Part shown: positions 30,986 through 47,563 of the stretch, in pieces
Numbering within the stretch: the stretch's first letter is position 1
Layout: every line of letters begins with the position of its first letter
DNA from: Synechococcus sp. KORDI-100
GTDB lineage: Bacteria > Cyanobacteriota > Cyanobacteriia > PCC-6307 > Cyanobiaceae
DNA: 64,000 nt
Assembly: GCF_000737535.1 (NCBI RefSeq)
Contig: NZ_CP006269.1
Span: 1 to 64,000, forward strand
Direction of reading: 5' to 3'
Notes under the pieces: generated by a model
The model's input: only the letters and a program-made list of their open reading frames with translations
Told to the model about the DNA's origin: nothing
Databases searched by the model: none
Position numbers and translations under genes: made by a program

Positions 30986-31186
30986 TTACTCCAGGACAAA
31001 TTCATTTTCCAACGCAATCGCATCGTTCTGCCTGCCAACATCCTCTAACAGCTCAAGCCTATTGTGAAGCCATTTTGTGCTTCGCAAATCAAAAACAGCC
31101 TCCTCAAAATGGAAATCGTCTCGATCGTTCCATGACTGATCGTGGTCCTGACCGTCATGACCTTGAGAAACAGAAACCTGCATCAT
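30986..31186 (-). CDS. Small acidic hypothetical protein
   Basis: 66 residues: MMQVSVSQGHDGQDHDQSWN, then DDFHFEEAVFDLRSTKWLHN and an acidic helical end (RLELLEDVGRQNDA). His/Asp-rich at the N-terminus. No family. The frame is uninterrupted in AT-rich DNA, so it may be real. Confidence 0.4.
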   Translation of the reverse strand: MMQVSVSQGHDGQDHDQSWNDRDDFHFEEAVFDLRSTKWLHNRLELLEDVGRQNDAIALENEFVLE

Positions 31187-31386
31187 TGATGAACAACTTT
31201 AATAAATATAGATATCGGCAGTGTACGGTTCCGTATCAAGTTATATCCTTCTGAAATTGATATCGGTGATACACGATTGGGCGAAAAGGTTCATGCGTTG
31301 CAGGTTCTCTGTGCCTCACGGAACATCAACTGAACACATCACCTGAAAACTGATATCGCTCTCAACATTGCAGACATCCTCCATTC

Positions 31387-31608
31387 AGGTCAGAGGAACA
31401 ACTCAAAGCGTTCTGGGAAGCCATACAGTCAGACCCTGCATGTCAACAAAAACTGCAAGGGGTCAGCGACCCTGGTGCCATTGTGGACATTGCAAAGGAA
31501 GCAGAATTCATCATTTCTGCTAATGAGCTGCAGAAAGTTCAGACTGAAATCAATGATGAACAGTTGGATGGCGTGGCTGGCTGCGCATGTTCAAGTTTGT
31601 CCTGGTGA
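31387..31608 (+). pseudogene. Nif11-type lanthipeptide (prochlorosin-like) precursor lacking a start codon
   Basis: An uninterrupted frame encodes a Nif11-like leader: SEEQLKAFWEAIQSDPACQQ, then VDIAKEAEFIISANELQKVQ and DEQLDGVAG, with a short Cys/Ser-bearing core CACSSLSW before the stop. Prochlorosin precursors begin MSEEQLKAF and end the leader with GVAGG or close variants, so the expected ATG is here AGG (31387-31389). No other good start exists in frame before the leader; GTG inside the leader would delete half of it. I call it a precursor gene disabled by one base change. No LanM-type synthetase gene is in the window. Confidence 0.75.
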
Positions 31609-31797
31609 TTTGCGATTGTGGATTTTGTCAAGCGCCGGGATTTGGTGCGGGGTCTCGGACTGGTCTTCTCTTGGCTGCCGGTGGAGTCAGGGGGGCAGAG
31701 AGCAGACCAATCAAGCGACGTCAAGGTTCACGGGATGACACCTCAGTGATCCTTGAAACTGCGTAAGACAACTGAAGACATCAGTCGTGGAGTGAAG

Positions 31798-31842
31798 TGG
31801 GCGATCACAGGATCGAACTGTGGACAGCCTGCTTGTAAGGCA
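31798..31842 (-). repeat. attL: 45-bp copy of the tRNA-Val 3' segment
   Basis: The 45 bases match 47519-47563 exactly (offset 15,721). They are the 3' half of tRNA-Val, from the anticodon arm to the discriminator, without the 5' half, so this copy marks the far end of the integrated element. Confidence 0.9.
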
Positions 31843-31992
31843 AGCGAAACGCCAGTTATTGCAAAGGTTTTTGAGGCTATGACAGGGCTTTTGAATCCAG
31901 AGGGCGCCCTGGGGTATCCCGGAAAGGGACGTTTCTGGAGACATCGAGGCTGAGTGTCTCCAGTTTTGAAGACCTGGCTTAAGGCAGTTTGA

Positions 31993-32622
31993 TCAGCTCT
32001 CCAACCCCTGATCCAGCAGACGTTCAAACGCTTTCTCCATCCGTTGTTCCAGTGGGGTCAAAACAGGAGCAGGAACGGTCCTGCGGGCTGATCGACGACG
32101 TTGCTCTGCAATCAGCGCATCACGCATCCTGAGCTCAGCGCGCTGTTGTCGTTCTCGCTCACCAAGCGCTGAAAGCCGAGATTTCCAGGCCTTCCGTCGC
32201 TGCTCTTGCTCGTATCTGAGTTCTGCCGCTGATATCTCCGTGATTGGTTGACCCCACCTCTCGCTATGCAGGGCATTGATCAGAACGCTGAGGTCTTTGG
32301 CAATTTCACCCTTGGAACTGTCAGGCAGCCGGTGATCAGAGACGTTGCCCAGCTCAAGCTGGAACAACCATTCCTCAACGTCGTCGAGACCACGTTGCTC
32401 TGCAATGTCCAACACGATGGCTCTGAGCTGGTTGCGATTGGCGGCTCTCGCGGACGGGCCTCGGACTCTTGTGGTCAGCATCTCTACAAACCGCGGCACC
32501 TGCTGCATCAACGCCTGGCGTCTGGGAGAAATGGTTTGGGTGTGGCTGCAGGCATCCCGGTTTGGACCTGGACCCGTGATGGCTCTCCCTACAGCCACGT
32601 CATCAGCAATGGAATCGGTCAT
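31993..32622 (-). CDS. Element-encoded hypothetical protein, coiled-coil rich
   Basis: 209 residues. The second half is Arg/Glu-rich and strongly helical (KAWKSRLSALGERERQQRAE, then RRSARRTVPAPVLTPLEQRM), suggesting a coiled coil; the first half has a stretch RFVEMLTTRVRG. No family recognised. It lies four bases after the stop of the gene upstream, forming a pair on the minus strand near attL. It could be a helper-interference or morphogenesis protein, but there is no direct evidence. Confidence 0.6.
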   Translation of the reverse strand: MTDSIADDVAVGRAITGPGPNRDACSHTQTISPRRQALMQQVPRFVEMLTTRVRGPSARAANRNQLRAIVLDIAEQRGLDDVEEWLFQLELGNVSDHRLPDSSKGEIAKDLSVLINALHSERWGQPITEISAAELRYEQEQRRKAWKSRLSALGERERQQRAELRMRDALIAEQRRRSARRTVPAPVLTPLEQRMEKAFERLLDQGLES

Positions 32623-32625
32623 CGA

Positions 32626-33159
32626 TCAGCCGCGTTGCCTTGCAGCCCGGTCCTCACGAATCAACCGGCGCTCTCTGGCCTTACGAGCCTCAACCGTCGC
32701 CATCAGAACAGGATTGCCAGCTGACTTGATCTGAGCGCGCAGCTGAGCGTTGGCTTCCTGATTCCGGCCCCTCAAGGCATTGAGCTCATCCTCAAAGGAA
32801 TGCCTCATCCGGAGTCGTTCACGCTCCACGGCAAGGCGAATCTGTCGTTCAAGGTGAGGCGCCAGCTCAACCAGAGCGTCATCGCCGATCTGGAGATCCA
32901 TCAGCTGCCGGCCAATCGCCTCAGTTGGACGTTCTCCGGCCTGCAGCGCGATCAACGGATCGGGCAGATCACGATCCATCGCTTCGAGTCCAAGCGCCTC
33001 CAGAAGCTCAGGATGAACGGCTGCAAGATGTTGATTTGCACTGACCGATTGCTGCAAGAACGTGACCAGTTTTGTTGCACTGCGCGGCACAACGTCATTT
33101 GCAAAACCTTTCTCTAAAAGGAACGCGCGAGCCTTGGCAAAGGCGACATTTTTGTCCAT
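32626..33159 (-). CDS. Element-encoded hypothetical protein, partner of the downstream gene
   Basis: 177 residues from ATG 33159 (MDKNVAFAKARAFLLEKGFA); an ATG at 33234 would extend it by 25 residues into a divergent frame. The middle is helical and Leu-rich, the C-terminus Arg-rich (SFEDELNALRGRNQEANAQL, then RKARERRLIREDRAARQRG), resembling head-scaffold or capsid-associated proteins in composition only. Three bases separate it from the next gene. Unrecognised. Confidence 0.6.
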   Translation of the reverse strand: MDKNVAFAKARAFLLEKGFANDVVPRSATKLVTFLQQSVSANQHLAAVHPELLEALGLEAMDRDLPDPLIALQAGERPTEAIGRQLMDLQIGDDALVELAPHLERQIRLAVERERLRMRHSFEDELNALRGRNQEANAQLRAQIKSAGNPVLMATVEARKARERRLIREDRAARQRG

Positions 33160-33208
33160 GAATTTCAGGTGAGAGCTACCTTTAAACAAGTCTGACGGAT
33201 GCCTTCCG

Positions 33209-33529
33209 TTGCAAAATACAAAATCATTTGCCACGACAATTCAAGGCCGCAATGAGTGGCTTCAGCAGCGGCAATCCTTGACACCTGAAGTTGCAGCTGA
33301 GGCTGATCTGGCCCTATCAACAGGACTGCTGACCTGTGTGATCACCCTCATTGATGGCAGCATTTTGCGGCAGCGCTGTGATCAGGCCTATCCATCTGAT
33401 GAAGGTGATCTGCTGCTCCTGAATGGATATGGAATTTTGATCTTCAGTGCCGCACGCAATCAGTGGGTGACATTCCATCTTGAGCAACCGGAAAACCTTC
33501 TTTGCCGTCGTTCCTTCAAATACAACTGA
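33209..33529 (+). CDS. Element-encoded hypothetical protein
   Basis: Up to 106 residues; the start is uncertain because the only standard starts are TTG codons (33209, or later). Strand-rich pattern LLTCVITLIDGSILRQRCDQ, then LLLLNGYGILIFSAARNQW. No family recognised. It is divergent from the minus-strand pair and is followed by another small plus-strand frame. Confidence 0.5.
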   Translation: MQNTKSFATTIQGRNEWLQQRQSLTPEVAAEADLALSTGLLTCVITLIDGSILRQRCDQAYPSDEGDLLLLNGYGILIFSAARNQWVTFHLEQPENLLCRRSFKYN

Positions 33530-33548
33530 GTTGAGGCTCTAAGCCGTT

Positions 33549-33707
33549 ATGACGACCATTCTCAAACTAAGAAATCAGACCTCACCGCCTGATCCCGATC
33601 AACTCCAGCTAGGAGAATTATTGATCGTGACCGGTGACAGTCCAGCGCTGTATTTCAAAAGTGTTGACGGGAAGCTTTGCAAAATTGATGCTGTCAAGCT
33701 TCCTTAG
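33549..33707 (+). CDS. Small phage-like protein, 52 residues
   Basis: From ATG 33549: MTTILKLRNQTSPPDPDQLQ, then LGELLIVTGDSPALYFKSVD and GKLCKIDA. The 'LGELLIVTGDSPALYFK...DGKLCKI' layout resembles the short N-terminal repeat of phage tail-fiber/hyaluronidase proteins. If so, it is a fragment or a small adaptor. The stop overlaps the convergent gene by a few bases. Confidence 0.45.
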   Translation: MTTILKLRNQTSPPDPDQLQLGELLIVTGDSPALYFKSVDGKLCKIDAVKLP

Positions 33708-34029
33708 CCAGCTGCTGATTGCGGGTTGCGAATGTGCCCCACGATTGTGTCCACGGCTCAGTGCGTTCTGGCTGCGGTGCAAATGACGGCTCTTTGATTG
33801 CAGGTCGCTCTGGAACGTCAATCACAACTGCGCCGTCAAGTGGGCTGACATATCCCGGCCCATCCGACTCAATCGTCGATGGATCAGCGTTGAAGCTTGG
33901 GCTGTGATGATCTTTCAGCTGATTGGAACGGATTGGACCAACACTCGAATCCCAATCATTACCAACATTGAATCTCGGGCGTCTGTCGGCTGAAGGCATT
34001 GATTTGAACTCGCTATTCCATTCTGGCAA
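33694..34029 (-). CDS. Element-encoded hypothetical protein, proline-rich
   Basis: 111 residues, low complexity and Pro/Ser/Asp-rich (DPSTIESDGPGYVSPLDGAV, PERPAIKEPSFAPQPERTEP), probably disordered. It begins immediately after a minus-strand terminator (34033-34060), so it has its own promoter or is read through. No family recognised. Confidence 0.5.
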   Translation of the reverse strand: MPEWNSEFKSMPSADRRPRFNVGNDWDSSVGPIRSNQLKDHHSPSFNADPSTIESDGPGYVSPLDGAVVIDVPERPAIKEPSFAPQPERTEPWTQSWGTFATRNQQLAKEA

Positions 34030-34032
34030 GAC

Positions 34033-34060
34033 AAAAGCCCCGCCATTGCTGACGGGGCTA
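34033..34060 (-). terminator. Rho-independent terminator
   Basis: Seven-base arms AGCCCCG (34036-34042) and CGGGGCT (34053-34059) with a ten-base loop; read on the minus strand, the stem is followed by TTTTGTCTT. It closes transcription of the His-rich gene upstream. Confidence 0.8.
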
Positions 34061-34204
34061 AGTGTGAATTAAGACAGTATTGAAAGCTGATTTGGGGGAT
34101 TATTGGCCAGATTAAAGAAATAAAACCCCCCTGCTGCAAGGGCCTTGGGTGGTTAGGTTGTTAGGGGTTTATCTTAAAGGACATCAGCTGTCTTCACAAG
34201 GACA

Positions 34205-34894
34205 TCAGCTATGGTAGATCTGTCCCCCTTCTGTCTGCCCACCTTGGGAGAACAACGATTGCATCGCTACAGAATCTAATTCAATATCATCAAATGCTCC
34301 GCCTTTATTCATCTCGTCCAACTCTTCTGCGAGTTCGTCGCGATCAAAAACATAACCTTCTTTCTTGCCATCCTTGATCACACGCTTGAGTGCTTTCTTG
34401 GGCTCCAGTGTGAAGTCAACCAACAGATCAGCTTGCTCTGAATCCGTCAGTGTTTCTCGATAGGCAGCAATCTGCTCTTTGGTGTCACCACCGTGCTCGT
34501 GATCATGACCGTGCTCGTGATCATGGTCGCCCGTAACAGCATCAAATGCCTCCATCCCCTCAAACTGCTCAGCACTTAGTTCAGGCTTGCCTTTAAACCG
34601 GGCGATCAATCCACCCACCTTCTTCTTGCCCCAGCCCTTCTCCTCACCGTTGGCATTCAGATACAGCTTGCCTTTCTTGGCGTCGTAGACCACATCCGCA
34701 TCAGACTTCATCAATGCCTTGAGTTCCTTCTTGCTGGAAGCAACCGCGAAGGATCCGTCCTCGACGCCATCGACATGGATCAGGGCATCAGCATCAAAGC
34801 TTTTGAGCTTGCTGGGTTTCTTGGCTGAGAACTCCAGCACCTCCTCACCGTGATCATGATCGTGGTCATGACCGTGATGGTCGTGGTATGCCAT
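34205..34894 (-). CDS. Histidine-rich cargo protein with RTX-like segment
   Basis: 229 residues from ATG 34894. Two His/Asp tracts occur: YHDHHGHDHDHDHGEE at the start and DHDHEHGHDHEHGGDT in the middle, likely metal-binding. Between them is ADVVYDAKKGKLYLNANGEE, then GWGKKKVGGLIARFKGKPEL, a segment seen in RTX-type extracellular proteins of marine Synechococcus. The C-terminus (ALKRVIKDGKKEGYVFDRDE) is acidic. No signal peptide. As cargo of the satellite it may bind metals; the function is unproven. It has a terminator of its own. Confidence 0.6.
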   Translation of the reverse strand: MAYHDHHGHDHDHDHGEEVLEFSAKKPSKLKSFDADALIHVDGVEDGSFAVASSKKELKALMKSDADVVYDAKKGKLYLNANGEEKGWGKKKVGGLIARFKGKPELSAEQFEGMEAFDAVTGDHDHEHGHDHEHGGDTKEQIAAYRETLTDSEQADLLVDFTLEPKKALKRVIKDGKKEGYVFDRDELAEELDEMNKGGAFDDIELDSVAMQSLFSQGGQTEGGQIYHS

Positions 34895-34988
34895 GACGAT
34901 CAATGCGGAGTGAGCCTTTCTAGCTGAGTTCCAGTGATCAATCCTGAAGACAGTGACGCTTTCGCTGTTGACGGTTGATCAGCGCATC

Positions 34989-35013
34989 AAAAACCCCGCC
35001 TTGCGAGCGGGGA
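34989..35013 (-). terminator. Rho-independent terminator
   Basis: Arms CCCCGC (34994-34999) and GCGGGG (35007-35012) with a seven-base loop; on the minus strand a TTTTTG tail follows. It ends the secreted-protein gene at 35131-35439. Confidence 0.8.
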
Positions 35014-35130
35014 AGTATGTGTGTGAGGTTTTGTCGGGAGATCGATCGGCCACAATCAAACCGCCATGTCTTTCCCTTGAGGGTTTTGTATAACTTTCAG
35101 CCAATAGGCATCAGGCTTCCCGATAATAAA

Positions 35131-35439
35131 TTATTGGCATACCAACTCTTGTAAATTTTCGCCATATGATCCAGGCATAACATCCTGGAATTTCTCCCCT
35201 TTAAATGCCCACCTCCATCCGGAACAATCTAAGGTCATATAAAAATCACCACCTTTGCTATTCCTAGCAAGGACATTTGCATAGGCCCCATTTCTGCTTA
35301 AAACTTTCACATAGCTTGATGAGTTGTCGTAATGAGTTCCATAATGCATCCATCCATTCCTTGCCTCAGCAGGATTAGCAGCAATAAATGATGTACCGAT
35401 CACAGCAGCTGCTGCAGCGATTGAAGTGAAGAGTTTCAT
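35131..35439 (-). CDS. Small secreted protein carried by the element
   Basis: 102 residues from ATG 35439: signal peptide MKLFTSIAAAAAVIGTSFIA ending AEA, then RNGWMHYGTHYDNSSSYVKV and a C-terminus with cysteines in LDCSGW and LVCQ. The ending (PGSYGENLQELVCQ) matches the host secreted protein at 27553-27864, so the element carries a member of a host surface/periplasmic family. Extracellular role unknown; it resembles other paralogs in marine Synechococcus. Confidence 0.6.
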   Translation of the reverse strand: MKLFTSIAAAAAVIGTSFIAANPAEARNGWMHYGTHYDNSSSYVKVLSRNGAYANVLARNSKGGDFYMTLDCSGWRWAFKGEKFQDVMPGSYGENLQELVCQ

Positions 35440-35565
35440 TTGAAAGTTGGTGAGTGTGAGGGTCATCCCCTCGGACACATTCACCATCGCCGAGCTGCCT
35501 TCAGATCACATCACCCGTTTGGGGGATCTTGCTTGCTGATCACTCCCCTGCAAGGGTGAGCTGAT

Positions 35566-36519
35566 TCAACTTGGAAAATCCTTAAGGCTATTTCTGTAAT
35601 CTTTGTTGTTTTGTATTTCTTCATCGTTTCCAAGTCTGAGTACAAAGCCCCAGTAGAGACAACGCCTGCTTTCACTCCACTCAGGTGGCTCAAAGTCCAC
35701 TGCTTCAGGGACAAGTTTGTGTAGCTCTTTCCAGAAAGCTTTTGTCAATTTTTTTCGACGCTTGATCCCAAAGTCTTCTACAGTGTCCATTAAATAGATT
35801 TGCGGATCATAGAAAGGAGGCTGATTCTTGGCTCCCCGCCACGAAAAAGCTTCGCTATTGAACGATTTTTCTAACTTTTTAAGTATGGCTGGGGTGGCTC
35901 TCTTAGCTAACTTTTTGCGATTCTCAGCGACATCGTTGCTGGGTGTTGGGGCTTCTGTTTCCTTCTGGACTGAAGGCTTGGGAGCCGCACTAGGGGTCGG
36001 AGGCTTTGGCTCCGATGGTGGGATGTCACGGTCGGTCTGTGACACTTGATGGAGCTCTCCGATCCGTCTCGGACCTACTGCCGCACGTTCACGCATATGA
36101 CGGGCGTGTTCTGCAGCTAGTTCCCTCTGCTGCTTCCGACGCTGAGCCTCTGTCGGTGTTCCCCCCGTGTTTTTGAAAACAAGCTTGCGGCTGTTCTCGA
36201 GCTCCTGACGACGAGCTGATGCCTCCCATGCCCGCTCGTCACGTTTCTTCCGTGACAGCTGCTGCCGACAACGATCGCTGCAGGTCTGCTTTCGAGGGTT
36301 GGCCAGCTCGAAGCTGGTGCCGCACACCACACAAGCGCGGGTGTCGAACGACAGCGCCTCAATTTTTTGAGCCAGGGCAAAGGCCTGCTGGGCGTTGCAA
36401 GTGAGCCTGGCTTCAGCTTTGAGGTCTTTGCCTTTCAGCTCGTCGAGCATGCCGCCCCAGCTGTAGAGCGCCATGCAGAGCTGACGAGCTTCTTCTGCCG
36501 ATAATTGAATTTGAGCCAT
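35566..36519 (-). CDS. Zinc-finger protein of the element
   Basis: 317 residues. A cysteine cluster CVVCGTSFELANPRKQTCSD followed by RCRQ (about residues 63-85) is a zinc-ribbon/finger. A long Lys/Glu-rich helical and Pro-rich linker follows, and the C-terminal 110 residues (FWKELHKLVPEAVDFEPPEW) form a separate folded domain. It is transcribed divergently from the replication module and its promoter side holds a TGTCAC-N9-GTGACA site. It could be a DNA-binding regulator or initiator; no family recognised. Confidence 0.6.
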   Translation of the reverse strand: MAQIQLSAEEARQLCMALYSWGGMLDELKGKDLKAEARLTCNAQQAFALAQKIEALSFDTRACVVCGTSFELANPRKQTCSDRCRQQLSRKKRDERAWEASARRQELENSRKLVFKNTGGTPTEAQRRKQQRELAAEHARHMRERAAVGPRRIGELHQVSQTDRDIPPSEPKPPTPSAAPKPSVQKETEAPTPSNDVAENRKKLAKRATPAILKKLEKSFNSEAFSWRGAKNQPPFYDPQIYLMDTVEDFGIKRRKKLTKAFWKELHKLVPEAVDFEPPEWSESRRCLYWGFVLRLGNDEEIQNNKDYRNSLKDFPS

Positions 36520-36565
36520 CGAGGTCAGATCTCTGTGGTTCCGTGGCAGGAGGTTGCCGCCCTCT

Positions 36566-36586
36566 TGTCACACTCATACTGTGACA
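36566..36586. promoter_or_regulatory. Candidate operator TGTCAC-N9-GTGACA
   Basis: A perfect inverted repeat between the divergent genes at 36519 and 36785. The same spacing occurs at 36024-36044 (inside the zinc-finger gene) and at 46063-46083. It probably binds a dimeric element-encoded protein that controls both divergent promoters. A TATAAT lies at 36747-36752 for the rightward gene. Confidence 0.5.
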
Positions 36587-36784
36587 CGTCTAGAGGGATT
36601 TTGCCTGCCCGGAACCGCGGCTCCCGCTCGGCTCGGAATCCCCTTCGATATCAATTTTGCGACCAGACTAGCTAGTTCCGGTATAGCTAATACGGGCAAT
36701 TTACACGGCTTAGATTGCATTGGGCGCCCTCTCTGTTTAGATTCAATATAATCAGCTTCGGGGTCAATCACAATCCGAACCAAT

Positions 36785-37090
36785 ATGGATTACGGCTTCA
36801 CGGCAACAACGCGTCAGGTGCTTGCCGCGCTCGGATTTTCAGATCCGAAAACACTCCATCGCCGGCGTGAGGACTACCGCGACGGCTCCAATCCTGTTTG
36901 TGATTCTCAAAAAATTTTTCAGGCAGGAGTCCATTTTGTGCGCGTGTCGCCGTCGCCGTACGCGCCGATTCGCTGGGATCTGGCGAAGACACTCCGCGCA
37001 TGGAAGGCCGCAACGATGTGCCTGGCATTTGAATCGTTGCAGGATCGTGCTGCTGAAACTGCCCGCCGCGAGATGGAGGACGATCAATGA
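36785..37090 (+). CDS. Putative DNA-binding regulator (excisionase/helix-turn-helix-like)
   Basis: 101 residues. ATTRQVLAALGFSDPKTLHR looks like a winged helix or excisionase-type helix-turn-helix, followed by RREDYRDGSNPVC and IRWDLAKTLRAWKA. It leads the rightward gene set (regulator, ribbon-helix-helix protein, helicase, primase), as phage or satellite control genes do. Candidate binder of the 21-bp operator just upstream. No family-level identification. Confidence 0.55.
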   Translation: MDYGFTATTRQVLAALGFSDPKTLHRRREDYRDGSNPVCDSQKIFQAGVHFVRVSPSPYAPIRWDLAKTLRAWKAATMCLAFESLQDRAAETARREMEDDQ

Positions 37091-37241
37091 TTGAAGGGGC
37101 TAATCGGTCGGCATCTGATTGATAAAAATTTCCGGTAAATTTCGGTTCGAGGCCACCCTAGGGCGCCCTGATGAGGAATCACATTTTTCCGGATCTATTT
37201 CACCTCGTTAACGTGAAAAGAATCGCTCTAAAAGTTTTCCG

Positions 37242-37442
37242 ATGACATCATCAACCCTGCAGACATCTCAAGAGAAGCCTGGGAAGCTAGTGGTTGAAAC
37301 AATCGCATTCTCAGCGCGCCCAGGCACGAAAGAATTTCTCAATCAATATCGGGCTGATATCGGCGCCCGATCCATTTCAGAAGTGATGCGCACTTTGATT
37401 GACGAGAAGGCTCTCGATTACGAGAAATGCATGAACTGGTGA
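37242..37442 (+). CDS. Small ribbon-helix-helix-like protein
   Basis: 66 residues. The C-terminal part TKEFLNQYRADIGARSISEV, then MRTLIDEKALDY, has the helix-turn-helix spacing of Arc/MetJ/CopG ribbon-helix-helix repressors, with a strand (VVETIAFSARP) before it. A likely DNA-binding regulator of the element. Length and layout are normal for the group; recognition is from pattern only. Confidence 0.55.
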   Translation: MTSSTLQTSQEKPGKLVVETIAFSARPGTKEFLNQYRADIGARSISEVMRTLIDEKALDYEKCMNW

Positions 37443-37552
37443 TGTTTTGAAGGCACAGGGGGATCCAGCCACGCCCGGAAAAGCACCGGCTGGATCCCTC
37501 GCCTCTCACATGCCCGACCGCCGAACAAGTGATTCGTCCCGAAGGACAAAGC

Positions 37553-39132
37553 ATGAAGCGATTTAAATCTAAGGGCTCTGCCCTTGGCGGCGCCAGATCG
37601 TCGTCAACAGCCGAACTTCGGCAGCACCAACATGACGCCACCCTGCTGGAACACATCCAGCAGCAGACCCTGCAGGAGGCCGCCGATGCCTTCACCAGAG
37701 AGGCCACCCAACCGCCGGTCACCCTGACCGAAGCGCAGCAATCGATCCTCGATCAAGTGATGGTGGATGTGGCATCCACCGACGTTCACACCGTTGGGAT
37801 CTGGGGATTCGCTGGGGTCGGCAAAACCTTCCTCACCGCCAAGATCACCCAGCTGCTGCAGGAGACCTACGGCCCTGATGCCGTCCGCATGTGCGGCACC
37901 ACTCACAAGGCTTCACGACAAGTTGAGCGGGCCATGGCATCTCATGGCGTCGTCACAGAGGTCGCAACCGTCCACCGGTTGCTTGGTGTCCGTCAGGTCC
38001 GGGATGAGGACAGCGGCGAGGAATACTTCGCCCCCGACAAGAACAACCCGCCAGCGCTGGATGCAGGCGTGCAGGTCGTCATTTGCGATGAGACATCAAT
38101 GTTGGAACAGCGGCTTTACGAGCTGCTGATGGACGCCCTCTGCCCCCGGCAGACCGTCATCTTCGTGGGTGACAGCGAGCAAATCCCACCGGTGTCGGAT
38201 GGCCGGCTTTGCGGGGCATTCCCCGAGGAATGCCGCTGATGCCAACAGATCGCACCTATCGCCTTACCGAAGTCCTTCGGCATGACGGCGCCATCCTCAG
38301 CCTGGCCACCGCGACCCGCCAGCTAACCCGTGGACGGGCTCCATTCCAGCCCGCCGAAGGTGGTGGCTCAAAGGTCGTCACCTATCCAACCCTCGCCAGA
38401 TGGAAGGCTGCGGCAATCACAGCGGCGTGCAGCCCTGAAGCTCAGGCCGATGCCGATCACACGCGCATCCTCTGCTGGACGAATGCGAACGTCAAAAACC
38501 TGAACCGGATCGTTCGGGAACGGGTCTATGGCATCCATGCCCAGCCCTTCATGCCGGGCGAACGCATCATTTCTCACGATGCAATTCCAGACCCCGCCGG
38601 TGGGTCGCCTTTGGTTCACAGCACCACCGAAATGGTGATCCGCAGTGTCGTTTCCGATGGCGGCAACCTGCCTGGCGATGAACTGGAACCGGTGGCGATC
38701 GCCAGCCATGGCATCCGCAGGTTCAAAGCAGGAGAAAAGGTCGCTGCACCGTGGACGTTCTGGACCATCGCAGCCCATGCCCCTGCCATCGGCACCGTGG
38801 AGTTCAACGTGCTGGATTCACAGGATCAAGCACGCTGGCGGAAGTGCCGCAATGCTCTTGCTCAACTGGCGAAGAGCACAACGGACCGCGGGGATCGCAA
38901 GCGGTACTGGCGCATGTTCTTCCAACGGAAGGATGCCTTCGGCCAGGTGGAACCCGCCGCGGCGCTGACCGTTCACAAGAGCCAGGGCAGCACCTACCGG
39001 CACGTCTATCTCCATCCCGATGTGGACGGGTTCAGCGTCAATCCGGCACCGATTCACAACCGCTTGGCCTATGTCGGCATCACCCGTGCCGCCGAAACCC
39101 TCCACGTCGTCGCTGATCAGGAGGTGGACTGA
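37553..39132 (+). pseudogene. RecD/Dda-like SF1 helicase split by a frameshift
   Basis: The N-terminal part (start ATG 37553, with GAAGGA seven bases before it) has Walker A GFAGVGKTFLTAKI, Walker B VICDETSML and motif III FVGDSEQIPPVSDG. The C-terminal part in another frame has TYRLTEVLRHDGAIL, HKSQGSTYRHVYLHPD and RLAYVGITRAAE, the final motifs of Dda/RecD-like helicases. The first frame ends at 38239; the second reads from 38209. Restoring one A after the Glu codons near 38232 would join FPEE to MPLMPTDRTYRLTEV. This may be a real mutation, an assembly error or recoding; I annotate it as frameshifted. It precedes the primase with a one-base overlap. Confidence 0.75.
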
Positions 39133-41768
39133 TGCCTCAGTTCTTCCTCCCCCATCACGATCAGAAAATTCGGGCGCGAGGATTCAACACAGAACACCTT
39201 CAGTTGTTCGGGGATAACCGCTGGGTGCGGTCAGTGGACAACACTCAGATTCACAACAGCTTGCTTCAACCTTTCCCTTCGGCCAGAGGTGTTGAAGGTG
39301 ATGGGCTGCTGCTGGAATTCAACGAAACCAGCCGTTCCCTCAAGCTCGATAACCCACCGCCAGACCCAAAGCAGGATGGTCGGCCAAAGAAATACCTTTA
39401 CGCCGTTCGCGACGTTGAGGTTCATCCCAAGGGCTACAACACACAGCCTTGGATTCCACCCAACGGCCAAACAAGGATCATCACCGAAGGCATGTTCGAT
39501 GCCCTGGCTTGTACCTATTTGGGTGGCGTGAATTGTGCTGCTGCAACAGCACCAACTCACCTCAAGCGATCAAAGCTGCCCCCAGGCTGTGATGTCTACA
39601 TCGGTGATGCCGATTGCCCTTTCCATCACTTCACCGGCCTGCTGGGTGGAATGCTTGACGGTGCTCTCGCAGTTGGCGTCAAGCTCGCCTGCCTGCCCCG
39701 TTCACCCCTTGGGAATTATCTATACACAAACGGGAAGATCCCTGAAGACTGCAAGTGGGGGATGGAGGAATGGATCCGTTACTGGCAACAGAACAACCAA
39801 GACCCCAAGGTTGAAATTCAAAAGGTGATCGTTGGGGCATTGCATCCCATCCAGTTCCTCGAACGCTGCATTGCTGAGGCCGGTGAACTTGGCATCCGTT
39901 GGCCTGATCACACCCCCCAGATCACCACCCTTGCCAAAGCCATCGCTGATGCCACCGGCGACAAGGCTTGTCGCTTGGCCTTGCGGGATCAACTGCGGGC
40001 TGCGGTCAAAGCACCGGCCACACCCCTCAATGAACTGATCAACCAACGGTCAGCCAATAAGGTCAAGCGGCAACGGGAAGAGGCCGAAGAGGAACGCAAA
40101 CGGGCAGTTGCCACCGGTGAAGCACTACCGGAAGACCCTTACGCCATTTGGGATGCAAAGCCCATCGCGGTACATGTTTCCAACATCGTCCGCGAACAAT
40201 CAGAACCCTTGCTCCGGCGGGTCCACGGCGATGCGGTGCTTTATCAATACGACCCCGGCGTTGGGTACTGGCGGCACCTTGATGATTTCCATGTCCGCCG
40301 CATGGTGCGTCCCATCGTTGAAAGCTGCTACAAAGCCACGCTCACCGAAGAAGGCGACACCCACAAGGAATATCGCTTCGGCAATGACTCTGATGTCACC
40401 AGCACTTGTCACGCCCTGGCGGAAAAATGCCATCAAGGCAATCCCGAGGAATCCAAATGGTTCCTCACCTTCGCCAACGGCACCCTGGATCTCCGCACCA
40501 TGGAGTTGCTGGCGTTCAGTCCAGATCACGGCACCACACACCACCTCGCCGTTGACCTACAGCTGACTCAGGCCTGCCCTGCCGCCCTCGTGCGAGTCAT
40601 CGACACCTGTTACGGCAACGATGCCACCGACAGGGTGCGGGCTTTCCTTCGCTGGGTTCTTGATCTCTCCATGCCTTGGGAGTCGTTGTTCTTTTTCCTG
40701 GGTGGCTCTCGTTCCGGCAAGGGCATCCTGTTGGAACTGGCGGAATCGCTGCTGCCGTCTGAATTCACTTCGGCAATGAAAGATCCCTCCCAGTTGGCCG
40801 GTGCTGACCAAATCCAGCAATTCGTCCAAGGCAAACGCCTCATCACCTTCCCCGAGGTCAAACCCAATGCAGGCCGTGATCGCGATTGGTCCATGGCATT
40901 GCAACTGGCCTCACATACCCGTCTGACCTCGCGAAGGATGCGGTCGTCGACATCTACCAACCCCGTTCATGACATTCGCCTTGTCATGGCTGGCGTGGAT
41001 GTCCCCGACCTTGGCAAGGACTCCGCCCAGGGCCTGTCCCAGCGTGCTCGCTACATGCGAACGCTGCCCCGCAGAGGTGAACCTGACCCATCACTCAAAA
41101 ATGACCTAATCGGCACTACCGCCGAACACGACACCATCCGCGGTCAAGTCATCGGCTGGGCGCTCACTATGGATCGTGATGCTGCAGTCGCGGCACTCAA
41201 TGACCAGGAATTCCAGCATCAGCGCCTTGAGCTTCAGGCATGCACCGATCCGGTCTCCCTGTTCATTGATGAATGCTTGGTGCCTGCCGATCAGTTGGTC
41301 CCCACTGAATATCGCCCCATGCTGCTCAAAGCGTTTTACGCATGGTGTGACTCCACTGGCCATTCCCTCGCGGCACGTTCCTACACAGAACACAACCTGA
41401 TCAATCAAATCAGAAAGGTCATGCCCGCCACCCATCGCCAACGGCGGTCGCCCACCAAACAAGAATGTGCAGACCTGGGCCTCGACTACAACAAGCGCCC
41501 CAAGCTCTCCGCTGTTGATTGGGGATACAGCATCCGACCTGGATTGCTCAAACCCCACCATTCCTTTGGGAGGCCCAAAGACTTTGAAATGGTGTCTGCC
41601 ATGAGGTCAGACGGTGGCATTGCTGCCATTACGGCAGAGGTCAACATCCCCACCGATGCACTGGTGAAAACTGCTGCCGAGACTGCCTCTCGCAAGTTCC
41701 GAGTCAGGGCAAAACTCGACATCGACGCCAATCAACTGATTGAGACATGGGGGCTGAAGACTGGTTGA
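39132..41768 (+). CDS. Primase-helicase (Toprim plus SF3/D5-type)
   Basis: 878 residues. The N-terminal part has a Toprim-like pair: ITEGMFDALACTYLGG and DVYIGDADCPF (acidic residues for metal). From about residue 510 comes the superfamily 3 helicase: Walker A FFLGGSRSGKGILLELAES, Walker B-like RLITFPEVKPNAG, sensor IRLVMAGVDVPDLG and an Arg-finger region. The end resembles the D5/phage P4-type C-terminal domain (LLKAFYAWCDSTGHSLAARS). This is the main replication protein of many satellites and would prime and unwind element DNA. It overlaps the helicase stop by one base and is followed by a hairpin at 41776-41822. Confidence 0.9.
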   Translation: MPQFFLPHHDQKIRARGFNTEHLQLFGDNRWVRSVDNTQIHNSLLQPFPSARGVEGDGLLLEFNETSRSLKLDNPPPDPKQDGRPKKYLYAVRDVEVHPKGYNTQPWIPPNGQTRIITEGMFDALACTYLGGVNCAAATAPTHLKRSKLPPGCDVYIGDADCPFHHFTGLLGGMLDGALAVGVKLACLPRSPLGNYLYTNGKIPEDCKWGMEEWIRYWQQNNQDPKVEIQKVIVGALHPIQFLERCIAEAGELGIRWPDHTPQITTLAKAIADATGDKACRLALRDQLRAAVKAPATPLNELINQRSANKVKRQREEAEEERKRAVATGEALPEDPYAIWDAKPIAVHVSNIVREQSEPLLRRVHGDAVLYQYDPGVGYWRHLDDFHVRRMVRPIVESCYKATLTEEGDTHKEYRFGNDSDVTSTCHALAEKCHQGNPEESKWFLTFANGTLDLRTMELLAFSPDHGTTHHLAVDLQLTQACPAALVRVIDTCYGNDATDRVRAFLRWVLDLSMPWESLFFFLGGSRSGKGILLELAESLLPSEFTSAMKDPSQLAGADQIQQFVQGKRLITFPEVKPNAGRDRDWSMALQLASHTRLTSRRMRSSTSTNPVHDIRLVMAGVDVPDLGKDSAQGLSQRARYMRTLPRRGEPDPSLKNDLIGTTAEHDTIRGQVIGWALTMDRDAAVAALNDQEFQHQRLELQACTDPVSLFIDECLVPADQLVPTEYRPMLLKAFYAWCDSTGHSLAARSYTEHNLINQIRKVMPATHRQRRSPTKQECADLGLDYNKRPKLSAVDWGYSIRPGLLKPHHSFGRPKDFEMVSAMRSDGGIAAITAEVNIPTDALVKTAAETASRKFRVRAKLDIDANQLIETWGLKTG

Positions 41769-41775
41769 TGGCTGC

Positions 41776-41822
41776 TGCCCCTGCCCCCCCCCAATGCCCT
41801 TGTTTCACCCGAGGCAGGGGCA
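41776..41822. terminator. Hairpin after the primase-helicase gene
   Basis: Perfect ten-base arms TGCCCCTGCC (41776-41785) and GGCAGGGGCA (41813-41822) with a 27-base loop, just past the primase stop. No clear T-run follows, so termination is likely but not certain. Confidence 0.5.
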
Positions 41823-42054
41823 TTGTCATGTCTCCGCGCTTTTTCAGACAGGGCCAGATCCACTGCAGGCCAAAACGACCAGGCGAGACAGGGTTATCTG
41901 GAGTGTTCTAAAACTTCTATATACAAAAAAGAATCTGAGAAGCCAGAAATCAAGAAATTTATTTCTCTCCTGCATAGAACTAATGCGAGACAACCCACCC
42001 TGTCTCGCTGTCGCGTCTGACTCGCGACATCAAATTGACCGCCATAATTGAGCC

Positions 42055-42750
42055 ATGGGCATTCAGTCACTACTCGGTCAAATCAGCGACGAGAAACTTA
42101 AAGAGCTGCCAGGTCGGCAACGTAACGCTCTTAAAGTTCAGCAGCATCTAAATGCTTTCGCCCTGCACCTGCAGGGTTTGAGCGATCGCGCTGTTCAAGA
42201 AGAATTGGGCGTTGGAACTCTTTCAAGCGCTCAACATTCCATCAAGCGCGGAGAAGAGATCTCAAAAAAACTTGGGCTCGATTCAGATCGCGTCAGGTTG
42301 AAAGTTGCAGCTTGGTTTGAAGAGCTAACCGACCTGACAATGCAGACCGTTCGTGATCAAGTTCTGAACGGCACTCTGGTTGAATCGCTGGATGGCGAAG
42401 GCAACCGCAGTTATCGCCGAACGAAGCACGCCGATCCGCGGATGGTGGCCGAGGCTTCTCGCGGGCTGGTGAGGATGGCCTCGTTCTTCGGGCTGATGGA
42501 TCCCGACAAGAGCAACACCGGTGGAGACATCAGCACCAGCGTGGTGTTCCTCAGCCCGCAGGCCGATCTTTCTGCATGGGAGACGAAAACGGTCGATGTG
42601 ACCCCAAGTGGAGACTCAACTGGAGACAATGCGGTCATTCCTGCTTCAGAAGGCAGTGATGCCAATGATGAGTTGCTGCTTAACAAGCAATCTGAGCCTG
42701 AATCCGATCCTGGGCGCCCAGCCACAAGCGGGACAGAAGGGCAGGCCTGA
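42055..42750 (+). CDS. Terminase small subunit
   Basis: 231 residues. A helical N-terminal DNA-binding part (LKVQQHLNAFALHLQGLSDR, AVQEELGVGTLSSAQHSIKR) fits a helix-turn-helix like those of small terminases, and the C-terminus is acidic and disordered. It overlaps the large terminase start (TGATG). Small terminases recognise the packaging site, so this gene probably selects element DNA for a helper capsid. Family assignment rests on position and layout. Confidence 0.75.
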   Translation: MGIQSLLGQISDEKLKELPGRQRNALKVQQHLNAFALHLQGLSDRAVQEELGVGTLSSAQHSIKRGEEISKKLGLDSDRVRLKVAAWFEELTDLTMQTVRDQVLNGTLVESLDGEGNRSYRRTKHADPRMVAEASRGLVRMASFFGLMDPDKSNTGGDISTSVVFLSPQADLSAWETKTVDVTPSGDSTGDNAVIPASEGSDANDELLLNKQSEPESDPGRPATSGTEGQA

Positions 42751-44177
42751 TGACCGCATCTGCTCCTCAGGCGATCACGCCAACCGCGATGCAAGCGGAC
42801 ATGCAGCGGGTGCCGTTGGATCACGACTTAGTGGCCTGCGGCGGCCGTGGTTCGGGCAAGTCGTTTGGCGGCGAGCTGGTGGTTGCTCGAGATAGCACCG
42901 TTCTTAAAGAGCGGTTCAATTGCCTGATCGTCCGGCGAAGCTATGCCGGTCTGCAGGAGCTGAGCACCAGCTTGGGCCGCACGTTGACGGCGACATATGG
43001 CCAGGCGCTGAGCTTCAACAGATCGGACTGGACGCTGCGGCTGCCCAACGGTGGTGTGATTGAACTGGCTTATCTGGATCCATCCCGCCCCCAGGCGATG
43101 CTGCGGCAACAGGGCCGCTCGAGAACGACGATCTGGGCCGATGAAGGCGGGCAGTACAGCGACCCCGACATGCTCGATCAGCTGCGGGCCACGTTGCGGG
43201 CTCCTGCTGGAACACCGACAAGATTCATTTTCACGGCGAACCCTGGCCAGGCGGGTCATGCCTGGATCAAGCAGCGGTGGGTGCAGCCGGCGGGCTTTCC
43301 AGCGCCGGGTGTGGCGGTGCGGTTCCATTGTGAGGACACGACTAGCCCGACGGTTTACATCGGGAGCAATATTGCGGCGAATCCACATCTGGATTTTGAG
43401 CAGACGCGGCGTCAAATCGAGATTGCAGCGGGTGGGGACCCGGAGCTGCTGCGGGCCTGGCTGGAGGGCTCATTTGAAGGAGTTATCAGCGGCAGTTACT
43501 TCGCCGATTCGATGTCACGTCGGCGGAATCTGCTGGAGCTGAATGGTGGTGATCAGCCGCAAATTCCACAAGGCAGCCGACTGCTGGTGAGCTTCGACTG
43601 GGGGATTGCGGCACCGAGCTGCGCGACGTTGTTCATCACCAATCACCCGTTGTTGCCGCGGGGCAGCTTGTTTGGAATTGACGAGTGTTATTTGAGCAAG
43701 AGCACCCGTTCTGGAGAGCCGGATTGGAATGCGGGGTTAGGTGCCAGCAACCTGCAGCAGGCGCAGATTTTGCAGGAGTGGATCAGCAGGTGGGGGTTGG
43801 AGCCTCAGGATCTGACGTGGATTGCGGACGATGCGTGTTGGAACAGGACGGGTCATGCGCTGACGATTGCCGATGAGTTTCGGAAGGGCGGGATTCCGTT
43901 TCGACGAGCGGGCAAGGCGCGGATGAGTGAGGAGGCGGGGCTGGCCAGGTTGCGGACGATGCTGTGGGCGAGTGATCGTGATGAGAGCCAGCCGTGGGTG
44001 AAGGCGAGCCGGAGGTGCAGGGCGTTCTGGGAGTTAACGCCGCTGTTGGCGCGGGATACGAAGAAACGAGAGTTGTTGGATCCAGCAGCGATCACGCACA
44101 GCATTGATACGTGGAGATATGCGGTGAACTTTGTGCAGAGGCCAGTTGGAGCAGGGCGTGGTCACCGGATTTATTGA
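42750..44177 (+). CDS. Terminase large subunit
   Basis: 475 residues. ATPase: Walker A CGGRGSGKS (residues 30-38), Walker B TIWADEGGQ (about 127-135) and a coupling motif FTANPGQAGHAW. Nuclease: a catalytic acid in LVSFDWGIAAPSCATL (Asp283) and later acidic residues (DLTWIADDACWNRTGHA). The intact motor and nuclease would translocate and cut DNA into a procapsid, but the element itself encodes no recognised capsid or portal. A 16-bp palindrome lies at 44187-44202 just after it. Confidence 0.92.
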   Translation: MTASAPQAITPTAMQADMQRVPLDHDLVACGGRGSGKSFGGELVVARDSTVLKERFNCLIVRRSYAGLQELSTSLGRTLTATYGQALSFNRSDWTLRLPNGGVIELAYLDPSRPQAMLRQQGRSRTTIWADEGGQYSDPDMLDQLRATLRAPAGTPTRFIFTANPGQAGHAWIKQRWVQPAGFPAPGVAVRFHCEDTTSPTVYIGSNIAANPHLDFEQTRRQIEIAAGGDPELLRAWLEGSFEGVISGSYFADSMSRRRNLLELNGGDQPQIPQGSRLLVSFDWGIAAPSCATLFITNHPLLPRGSLFGIDECYLSKSTRSGEPDWNAGLGASNLQQAQILQEWISRWGLEPQDLTWIADDACWNRTGHALTIADEFRKGGIPFRRAGKARMSEEAGLARLRTMLWASDRDESQPWVKASRRCRAFWELTPLLARDTKKRELLDPAAITHSIDTWRYAVNFVQRPVGAGRGHRIY

Positions 44178-44186
44178 TGCAGAAAA

Positions 44187-44202
44187 GTCACGCCGGCGTG
44201 AC
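44187..44202. repeat. Perfect 16-bp palindrome
   Basis: GTCACGCCGGCGTGAC lies between the terminase stop and the next gene. It shares GTCAC/GTGAC arms with the element's 21-bp inverted repeats but with six, not nine, bases between. It may be a packaging, recombination or regulatory site; no direct evidence. Confidence 0.35.
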
Positions 44203-44211
44203 AATTTGCCA

Positions 44212-44541
44212 ATGAGTGTTGTGCGGGAAGGCGACTGTGTGTTGCTGAGCTGCCGGGACAGTGCTGCGCTTATTGAGGTGCGGGATTTAGAGGGTTTGCA
44301 GATCAGGTTGGACGGTGTGGTGAGGAGTGTGCGTGGCGAATGGTGTCGTGTTGCGGTGGAGCTGGAGGGATCACAGCGTCCGATCCGGCGGGGGTCACTG
44401 ACGCTGTTGATTGGCGTACGGCTCCGGGATGTGGAGGTGATTGAGGGTGGGCCACATGTATGGAGTCAGGGGAATGCAGCGGGGCTGGATCGAGTGCGGC
44501 GGACTGGGAGTGAGGAGTGTGATTACTGGGCGCCGCTCTGA
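44212..44541 (+). CDS. Small hypothetical protein after terminase
   Basis: 109 residues from the ATG at 44212 (an earlier GTG at 44131 overlaps the terminase end). Beta-strand-rich: MSVVREGDCVLLSCRDSAAL, then RLDGVVRSVRGEWCRVAVEL and RRGSLTLLIGVRLRDVEVIE. It could be a head-completion or adaptor-like protein, but no motif allows a call. Three cysteines. Overlapping frames are open on the other strand. Confidence 0.5.
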   Translation: MSVVREGDCVLLSCRDSAALIEVRDLEGLQIRLDGVVRSVRGEWCRVAVELEGSQRPIRRGSLTLLIGVRLRDVEVIEGGPHVWSQGNAAGLDRVRRTGSEECDYWAPL

Positions 44542-44656
44542 GAGTTGGCCAGAGCTGTCTCATCCCGTAACAGGAGACATCGCTCTTGGGGTGATCAGCA
44601 CGACACCGCTTTAGTGAGTTTCAGGCGAAGGTCGCAGGGAACTTGAGCGCTTTCAG

Positions 44657-44956
44657 ATGGCCCGCTTCATGATCCATTGGTGCGCCCCAGATCCCACCAA
44701 CGAGAAGTACACGCAGGCGATCGTCGACTACATCAAAGGCGGAAAGCCTATGGATGAGTACGCGGGCTTCAAGGTGTTGGCACGTCAGATCCACCCTCAC
44801 CTTGGTGGAGGCGTGCTTCTTGTGGAAGCCGACAATCTGGCCGCAGTGCAAAAACATACTTATCCCTGGACAAAGGGTCTCGGCGTTACCGCGACGATCA
44901 CTCCTGGTCTCAGCGATGAGGAGTATGTCGAGCTTGAAGAGAGCATGAGCAGCTGA
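44657..44956 (+). CDS. DUF3303-family small protein
   Basis: 99 residues. The pattern ARFMIHWCAPDPTNEKYTQA, then GFKVLARQIHPHLGGGVLLV and LAAVQKHTYPWTKGLGVTAT, matches DUF3303, small proteins common in marine cyanobacteria and their phages. Their function is unknown. It is followed by a hairpin (arms TCAACGGG and CCCGTTGA at 44963-44982). Confidence 0.75.
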   Translation: MARFMIHWCAPDPTNEKYTQAIVDYIKGGKPMDEYAGFKVLARQIHPHLGGGVLLVEADNLAAVQKHTYPWTKGLGVTATITPGLSDEEYVELEESMSS

Positions 44957-45199
44957 TCTGTTTCAACGGGAAATCCCGTTGATCAGATGTCGATCACGTT
45001 GGGCGTTCCACCAAAGGCTCATCAGTCGGAATCACGACCGAATGGTGCCTGGAAGGGCTGATTGGCAACGTCAAACCTGAGGCGCATGGGTGGACGCTTC
45101 AGGATCAGCGCCTGTCTGAGCGTCTTCTGGAGCCCTCTCAGCGCGCTTTTGAATGGATTTACCTAATTCCGTGGGGTACAACAGCCCTAGAATTGGGTC

Positions 45200-46030
45200 A
45201 TGGGCCGATCCACCGCCACCCGACACCGTCAGCCAGGCAGCCTCCGCCGCGTTTCCAAGACGGCGCGCGGCCGAAAATATGAGCGTTGGCAATGGCGCAC
45301 CCATCGGCAGACGGACACTGGGTGGGCCACTGTCGATGTGGAGCTGGGCGAGCGCCTGACTGGGCTACGCACTCGCACCCTGATCGCGCTGGGCGAGCTG
45401 TCTGCACCTTTGTTGGTTGAGCGCTGGGCACGTTGGCATTTCCGCTCTTGGAACGACATGCCCGCATTCACGGGTCGCCCTGCTGGAGCGAAGCAGCGCT
45501 CGGCTTGGTGGTGCGAGCTGCCTCGTCAGAGCGATGGTTCCATTCGCATCCGTTTCCGTTCTGTTGACGGCAGTTATGACTTCCGCCGCCGCGGTGCCCG
45601 TAGTGCCATCACCAGTGCCGAGGAGCTTGCAACCTCACTGTGGCGTTGCCTGACGGCTGATCCGATTGTGGAGTTGGGACGGCTGCAGTGGTTTGAGTCA
45701 GAGGCCCAAACCCAGATCGAAAAGATTGCGGAGGAGCAATTGGAGCTGCGTCGCCAGCGCCGTGTAGGTGATCTGAGCCAGCGTGATTTCGAGGCTGATG
45801 AGCGTGACACCTACCTTCGTCTTGAGCGCTGGGAGGCGATGCAAGCTGCCGTCAGAACTCGATGGGATGAGCTGTTGGCGGAGATGGTGGCCGCCCTACC
45901 GCGCACTCGTCGGGACGAGCTGAAGCCTCGGATTGTGATGCAGGCTGATCGGCTGCAAAGCGACAGCAAGCAACTGCAGAAATGGCGCGACGATCATTGG
46001 GTGGACAACACCCTTGAGTGGCGGGTCTGA
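45200..46030 (+). CDS. Element-encoded hypothetical protein
   Basis: 276 residues. Strongly basic N-terminus (MGRSTATRHRQPGSLRRVSK), then a WARWHFRSWNDMPAF segment and a long helical Arg/Glu-rich C-terminus (EEQLELRRQRRVGDLSQRDF). A nucleic-acid-binding or replication-accessory role is possible. Its end faces the integrase gene; a GTCAC-N9-GTGAC repeat sits in between. Unrecognised. Confidence 0.55.
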   Translation: MGRSTATRHRQPGSLRRVSKTARGRKYERWQWRTHRQTDTGWATVDVELGERLTGLRTRTLIALGELSAPLLVERWARWHFRSWNDMPAFTGRPAGAKQRSAWWCELPRQSDGSIRIRFRSVDGSYDFRRRGARSAITSAEELATSLWRCLTADPIVELGRLQWFESEAQTQIEKIAEEQLELRRQRRVGDLSQRDFEADERDTYLRLERWEAMQAAVRTRWDELLAEMVAALPRTRRDELKPRIVMQADRLQSDSKQLQKWRDDHWVDNTLEWRV

Positions 46031-46062
46031 AGCTGCTCATGCGCTGGCTGGAACAGCTGTCG

Positions 46063-46083
46063 CGTCACAGTTCAACCGTGACA
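46063..46083. promoter_or_regulatory. Third inverted repeat of GTCAC-N9-GTGAC
   Basis: Between two convergent genes, 20 bases from one stop and 40 from the other, so it cannot be a simple promoter operator. The arms and spacing match the sites at 36024-36044 and 36566-36586, apart from the outer base (C instead of T). Confidence 0.4.
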
Positions 46084-46123
46084 AATCCAGCCACCACGCC
46101 TCAACGCATGAGGGTGCTGGATA

Positions 46124-47386
46124 TCAGCTGGCTCCCAAAATCCGCTCGTAAACCTCAGTCGTTGTCTCTGTTGTCGCCGTGACGTAATAGGCGCTGTGAG
46201 TCAGCTCGCTGTGGCCCATGGCCATCGCAACTGAGGCTCCAGGGATACCCCGCAGGTGCGACCTGACGCTGTAGCTGTTCCTGAAGCTGTATGGCCTCAG
46301 CCACTTTCCCTGCTCTTCAAATGCCGCGGCCCAATTGCGCCAGAGTTTCTGACGACCCAGATACTGAGCAACAGCTTGGCCTCGTTCCTTCAAGGGCGGG
46401 AACGGCAGCAGGTTGGCGTTCAGAGCTGCAGCGAGATCGTTGGCAGGGACGTCCCCGTCAGGTCCGGTTATGGGAACCGCCTGTAACCAGCGCGGCTTGG
46501 TTTCCGTTTTGGTGGTGCGCCCCCCAGCTGCCTTCCGATAACTGCACCAGAGCTGGAGCTTTCGGGTTGTGGGGTTCACCTTGGAGATGAGGTGCGTCAG
46601 CTCTTCTGGCCTCAATCCGTAGACGGCCATCACCAGCAAGGCGTTGCGCCATTCGTCAGTAGGCACTGAATCCAGCAGTTCCAAGATCTGAACGTCGCTC
46701 AGGATCGCGATTTCGCGTTGTTCCTTGGCCTTGCCGTTCCCCGCCAGCATGACCTTCTGGTGCTGGGGAAGGATCCAATCGGCGTCCAGCCCTTCGTGAG
46801 CAACGCCATAAGTGAGCAGGCGATTGACGGCCCCAACGCATTGCTGCCTGGCGCGGGGTTTGTCCGTCCAACCGCCGGTGGTGATGACAGTGTCGATCAG
46901 CTTGTAAGGACTGCTGGGTGCGTTTTTGCCCAACAGCACCGTGATGGCCTGATCGCAGTAGGTGCGCTCCAGCTGGATGGTTTTGTCGCTGACCTGCTTG
47001 CCGTTCTGTTGGCGATCCCGGTAGTAAGCGGCGCCGATGGCCTTCCAGTTGATTCCGCCGATTGCTGTCGGCACCCCTGGCTGAGGTTCCTCCTCGTCAA
47101 TTGAAAAAAGGTCAGCCCAAGCCTGATCAAGGGAGATCGGTGGATCACCGCTGACAGCGTTGTGCAGAGCGCTGACGATTTCGGTCACCGGCCCGATGCA
47201 GCCCACCTCCCATTGGAGGTCAGGGAGGTTCTTCGACCAGCAGCTCATCTTTCCATTGATGGCTTTTCGGACCCTCAGGTGAACGTAGCCCCGATGGTTG
47301 TTGACCGACCAGCCGCGAGGGACGCCAGCGGCCTTGATCGACGCCTTCAAGGCCGGGCCGAAATCGAAAGTTTTTGCCTTTGCCAT
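46124..47386 (-). CDS. Tyrosine recombinase (site-specific integrase)
   Basis: 420 residues. The C-terminal catalytic domain has the first Arg in VYGLRPEELTHL (Arg259), a box-II-like RPYSFRNSYSVR (Arg369), GHSELTHSAYY with His392 and the nucleophilic Tyr (400 or 401). The box-II His is replaced by Tyr, a known variation. It sits beside tRNA-Val, reads away from the tRNA and would catalyse attP x attB recombination at the 45-bp tRNA sequence. The N-terminal 100-220 is the core-binding domain. Confidence 0.92.
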   Translation of the reverse strand: MAKAKTFDFGPALKASIKAAGVPRGWSVNNHRGYVHLRVRKAINGKMSCWSKNLPDLQWEVGCIGPVTEIVSALHNAVSGDPPISLDQAWADLFSIDEEEPQPGVPTAIGGINWKAIGAAYYRDRQQNGKQVSDKTIQLERTYCDQAITVLLGKNAPSSPYKLIDTVITTGGWTDKPRARQQCVGAVNRLLTYGVAHEGLDADWILPQHQKVMLAGNGKAKEQREIAILSDVQILELLDSVPTDEWRNALLVMAVYGLRPEELTHLISKVNPTTRKLQLWCSYRKAAGGRTTKTETKPRWLQAVPITGPDGDVPANDLAAALNANLLPFPPLKERGQAVAQYLGRQKLWRNWAAAFEEQGKWLRPYSFRNSYSVRSHLRGIPGASVAMAMGHSELTHSAYYVTATTETTTEVYERILGAS

Positions 47387-47470
47387 GGCTTCCGCGAGTT
47401 GCTGCTTGCAATCTCCAGTGACCTCAATATGCCAAAAACTGGAGACAAAGTGGAGACATGCAACAAAAAA

Positions 47471-47486
47471 CCCGCCTGGTGGCGGG
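47471..47486 (-). terminator. Terminator downstream of tRNA-Val
   Basis: Arms CCCGCC and GGCGGG around TGGT; on the minus strand the hairpin is followed by TTTTTTG. It lies just after the 3' end of tRNA-Val and before the integrase gene start. Confidence 0.8.
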
Positions 47487-47518
47487 CGAGGATTGGCTAA
47501 AAGCCTTGGTGTGACTGA

Positions 47519-47563
47519 TGGGCGATCACAGGATCGAACTGTGGACAGCCTGCTTGTAAGGCA
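47519..47563 (-). repeat. attR: 45-bp repeat within tRNA-Val
   Basis: Identical to 31798-31842. The match ends at 47563, in the anticodon stem; beyond it the two copies diverge, marking the recombination segment. Confidence 0.9.

Follow-up and report, generated by a model that had tools for sequence, protein, structure and literature searches.

Within the first 64,000 nucleotides of the KORDI-100 genome (bases 1-64000 of a single contig of 2,789,000 bases; hereafter the window) lies a frame that the initial annotation had described as a prochlorosin-like precursor gene with a destroyed start codon. An AGG codon is followed by 72 sense codons and a TGA stop, and the resulting 73-codon frame, AGG included, is still open (Table 1). 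SEEQLKAF is read directly behind the AGG, and the leader runs to DGVAG before giving way to a CACSSLSW core, as had been described.

The leader matches the Nif11-type models TIGR03798 (59.8 bits, E 2.2e-16, curated cut-off 32.3) and PF07862 (46.6 bits, E 4e-12, cut-off 23.8). These scores place it in the Nif11 family far beyond chance, and the profile search that had been proposed as a check on the prochlorosin assignment thus supports it. The putative core contains two Cys and three Ser residues, the combination of Cys with Ser/Thr expected of a prochlorosin/SyncA core. Other hallmarks of the family are altered. The D/EELExxxGG motif that should precede the core reads DEQLDGVAG-C, with Cys for the second Gly, and the usual M-S/T-E-E-Q-L beginning is represented by SEEQL behind AGG instead of ATG.

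Table 1. Features of the window copy, its surroundings and its damaged or aberrant paralogs
Feature	Position	Strand	Remarks
Upstream neighbour, 66-aa ORF	30986..31186	-	relative in G023
Remnant of conserved 5' element, putatively promoter-like	31294..31386	+	upstream alignment, homology to procA upstream regions
AGG	31387..31389	+	expected start codon position
Nif11/prochlorosin-type leader, SEEQLKAFWEAIQSDPACQQKLQGVSDPGAIVDIAKEAEFIISANELQKVQTEINDEQLDGVAG	31390..31581	+	SEEQLKAF...DGVAG; open frame, profile matches
In-frame internal GTG	31483..31485	+	same GTG codon in three ATG-started paralogs
Putative core CACSSLSW, 8 residues	31582..31605	+	first Cys at second-Gly position of usual GG motif
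Stop TGA	31606..31608	+
45-bp tRNA-Val 3'-end repeat	31798..31842	.	left end of adjacent integrated element
Helicase-domain ORFs of element	37529-39132
D5_N protein of element	39132-41768
Terminase-like gene of element	42750-44177
Integrase-like gene, tRNA side of element	46124-47386		below Pfam's cut-off
Intact tRNA-Val (TAC)	47519-47590	-
Damaged paralog	829580		TGA in leader
Damaged paralog	2022214-2022421		frameshift
Damaged paralog	2478880		5' half missing
Aberrant paralogs	1234881 (L038) and 1237433 (L040)		TTG start, no GG motif, different tail

Start codon, upstream element and leader

Relatives of the window copy carry ATG at the equivalent site almost without exception. Regular-expression matching in the collected loci, damaged copies included, yielded 58 distinct leader starts, made up of 55 ATG, 2 TTG and one AGG, the last being that of the window copy. 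The expression missed variants, namely one additional TTG copy (1237433) and 7 of 28 loci from the family search (5 with ATG, 2 with an unclear start). When these 28 best-match loci were re-read at the match position, ATG directly preceded the match in 26 and the start was unclear in 2. In an alignment of 20 upstream regions the 19 other than the window copy have ATG (17 regions) or TTG (2 regions).

No substitute start is apparent upstream. The nearest in-frame stop 5' of the AGG is the TGA at 31351-31353, and none of the 11 intervening codons is ATG or one base from it, so that an upstream in-frame start was rejected. On the 3' side, in-frame near-start codons first occur at 31423 (ATA). The GTG at 31483 was likewise rejected as a new internal start since it is equally present in three ATG-started paralogs; starting there would leave a leader of roughly half the length, and the account in PMC10783134 puts the portion that ProcM requires at about three quarters.

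The ~80 bases upstream of procA-type genes form an element that is conserved in the genus, as judged from the alignment of 20 regions. The window copy has a 13-bp insertion in this element that is found in 0 of the 19 other aligned regions. It also has a C where 18 of the 19 have A (and one has T), inside a TGCTATCAA motif that resembles, and may act as, an extended -10 box. A literal GCTA occurs at -42 to -14 in 44 of the 58 starts; random 28-base samples from the window contain it in 3% of cases. It is missing from the -10-like place in the remaining 14, of which 13 are ATG-started, and the A of the -10-like motif is also absent in one paralog of the 20-row alignment.

Changes continue into the leader, where 4 of the 19 positions conserved to at least 90% in 48 others are altered. 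Three of these are Leu to Cys (conserved in 47/48), Gly of AGF to Glu (47/48) and Ser to Asn (45/48); the fourth is the second Gly of the cleavage motif, present in 47 of 48 relatives, which has become Cys. Such departures are in themselves no proof of death because at least as many are seen in two leaders that have both ATG and GG (L069+1500 at 4/21 positions, L079-1181 at 5/20). One aberrant TTG copy departs at 7/21 conserved leader positions.

The loss of the gene had been put down to a change of one base. For the start codon this stands: up to that codon the paralog L036 and the window copy do not differ in length (GCAGACATCCTTCATCC-ATG versus GCAGACATCCTCCATTC-AGG in the window copy), which supports a one-base difference at the start codon itself. 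As the whole story it falls short, given the insertion, the lost A, the lost Gly and the three leader changes.

A codon model fitted to 10 sequences of 64 codons with long branches gave an omega of 0.26 on the window branch and 0.18 elsewhere, which is not a significant difference (2ΔlnL 0.42), and fixing omega at 1 over the whole window branch worsened the fit (2ΔlnL 5.26). The LanM-side paralog L004, which is ATG-started, had a higher omega estimate of 0.66. These values hint that the window leader was mostly under coding constraint over its whole branch, in which case either the inactivation is recent or the copy is still used. A brief recent neutral phase may be compatible with an omega averaged over the whole branch.

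Paralogs, modifying enzyme and genomic setting

The initial annotation had noted the lack of a LanM enzyme in the window and regarded prochlorosin genes as scattered. Both observations are borne out by the complete contig, in which the window copy is dispersed and the one LanM over the curated cut-off lies far from it, at 1796238-1799138 (TIGR03897, 727.9 bits). This protein has PF13575 and PF05147 domains and a CCG motif in its translated ORF, and the genome thus contains a ProcM-like LanM. A 766-residue YcaO protein with a winged-helix domain is encoded ~4.6 kb from the LanM gene (L062:1326-3626, where L062 is G000:C1:1788000-1806000). This LanM and YcaO cluster agrees with the KORDI-100 cluster outlined in PMC10783134, in which a ProcM-like enzyme and YcaO accompany the core FHACACI (SyncA 'a4'). 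The same core, FHACACI, is encoded by L036, ~0.7 kb upstream of LanM.

The paralogs nearest to the window copy are at 1791886 (75% identity), 2351444 (74%) and 1799832-1800068 (71%, beside LanM), and all are ATG-started. TIGR03798 has 22 matches in the genome, two of which (2022214-2022421) belong to one broken gene. Once six matches that fell on other Nif11-type proteins had been left out, the remaining 16 matches were counted as 15 procA-type loci. Nine of the 15 look intact in that they start with ATG, stay open and keep the GG motif; the other six, the window copy among them, are damaged or aberrant. The two TTG copies L038 and L040 (G000:C1:1234881 and 1237433) are very similar to each other, lie 2.5 kb apart and lack the usual core.

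Across the genus, protein matches at E <= 1e-10 were found in 2 of 34 genomes (this one and G011) and a LanM over the cut-off in 1 of 34; G022 adds a partial LanM match located at the end of a contig. Several of the 34 assemblies are not complete. At the family level a match at E <= 1e-15 is present in 22 of the 400 genomes sampled. One further strain, G029, in which no LanM match was found, has a solo procA remnant (L060, G029:C1:2294973-2295049) in which the 5' element leads to an ATG and seven codons that match the leader before the similarity breaks off into unrelated sequence. G022 has a TTG-started Nif11-type copy (L061) that reaches a stop before any core and has no GG motif. Among viral sequences, 12 stretches of viral_contigs matched a pattern but 0 encode a relative at tblastn E <= 1e-3, a method that finds close relatives only, and 50,697 phage records gave no match at E <= 0.01. 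A phage-borne origin of the window copy is thus not supported, although missing viral matches are weak evidence of absence.

The copy sits close to a tRNA-Val integration site. The 45 bp at the 3' end of the tRNA-Val gene are repeated exactly at 31798-31842 and 47519-47563, and the left repeat begins 189 bp past the stop of the window copy, in accord with the 190 bases outside a satellite that had been given. The element between the repeats (31798-47563) looks like a phage satellite from its end repeat and gene content. Its helicase N- and C-terminal domains (AAA_30/PIF1 and UvrD_C_2) are split between ORFs at 37529-38239 and 38209-39132, which overlap in different frames and are possibly one frameshifted gene. 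The procA copy lies 189 bp outside this element and need not be its cargo.

The initial annotation had described the surroundings as hypervariable; the window copy occupies DNA that the relative G023 lacks. G023 has the same neighbouring genes and an intact tRNA-Val, the tRNA repeat lying 277 bases from the end of detectable homology. Neither this interval nor the rest of its genome gave a procA match at E <= 1e-10. The window is homologous to G023 up to about 31273 and, from about 31294 onwards, to the upstream regions of other procA genes. Of the collected loci, those of G023 (L050, L059) were the only ones to give tblastn matches to three neighbours of the window copy; the short stretches around the copies in G192 and G371 gave none. 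The 3' flank (31601-31800) had no match at E <= 0.1 among the loci compared. From this arrangement we infer a gain of the cassette here rather than its loss in G023.

Origin and fate of the window copy

The window copy resembles the ProcA/SyncA precursors that are served by a ProcM-like LanM in its Nif11-type leader (TIGR03798, PF07862) ending ...DEQLDGVAG, its possession of the genus's conserved 5' element, its dispersed position, its Cys/Ser core and the presence of a CCG-motif LanM in the genome. It differs from them in having no start codon, Gly-Cys in place of the double Gly, an altered promoter-like element and a core of only 8 residues. The closest described counterpart is SyncA 'a4' of KORDI-100 as reported in PMC10783134, which corresponds to L036: the leaders are 71% identical, the length from element to start is the same and both cores contain CAC, but the window copy lacks the ATG, the GG motif and the position ~0.7 kb upstream of LanM. 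In its location in a tRNA-linked mobile region the copy also recalls the nif11-type paralogs described in PMC2784084. Those paralogs, as presented there, border transposases, and 4 of 5 change expression under nitrogen stress, whereas the window locus is one startless copy known from sequence.

We consider it very probable that the window copy is a young pseudogene, a dispersed copy of the prochlorosin (procA/syncA) precursor gene of this strain. This reading draws on the family match, the 71-75% identical paralogs with ATG, the uniqueness of AGG among 58 starts and the lack of an upstream near-start. It draws also on the changed 5' element and cleavage motif, the sharing of GTG 31483 with ATG-started paralogs, the other dead or aberrant copies in this genome and two other strains, and the procA-free site in G023. 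Against it stand the open 73-codon frame, a branch that does not look neutral, the similar departures in ATG-started leaders and the absence of GCTA from other starts. The events would have begun when a cassette of 5' element, leader and core came to lie between the small upstream gene and tRNA-Val. The cassette would then have been constrained as coding sequence during most of its existence, as the codon model tentatively suggests, before, in whatever order, the start codon was lost, the promoter-like element changed and the cleavage motif was deprived of its second Gly. The expected outcome is that ribosomes would not start on the message and that LanM would have no product to modify; both promoter activity and translation are accordingly predicted to be absent at the window copy.

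An unlikely alternative is that the AGG stems from faulty sequencing or assembly and conceals an ordinary start. The sequence comes from a single assembly and the start differs by one base from that of L036, but the insertion, the lost A, the lost Gly and the three changed leader positions would then have to be either real or errors too. We think it improbable that the gene is alive and makes a normal or shortened precursor from AGG or from an internal codon (ATA 31423, GTG 31483). The open frame, the near-start codons inside the leader and the apparent constraint would suit such a gene, the constraint fitting continued use as well as recent death. However, AGG is among the poorest start codons, GTG 31483 is shared with the three ATG-started paralogs and would leave about half of the leader, and the promoter-like element and double-Gly motif are altered as well. 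Highly improbable, and suggested by analogy with the silent cassettes of pilin variation, is a role of startless and other silent procA copies as a sequence store that recombines into expressed procA genes; if true, such a store would help explain the diversification of prochlorosin cores. A chance open frame unrelated to prochlorosins has next to no likelihood and is rejected on the E value of 2.2e-16 to the Nif11 leader family, the 75% identity to a paralog and the conserved 5' element.

The window copy, in all likelihood inactivated recently, is best read as a case of ordinary birth-and-death turnover in a known family. In the literature searched we found no paper on procA pseudogenes, and the main text of PMC10783134 contains neither 'pseudogen' nor 'start codon'; we do not claim on this account that such genes are undescribed. 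Taken alone the window copy carries little weight, being one well-documented, probably dead member of a family known to be numerous and scattered. Its wider meaning concerns how the family is counted: precursor counts based on leader similarity can include dead genes, as illustrated by the 6 of 15 procA-type loci that look damaged or aberrant here.
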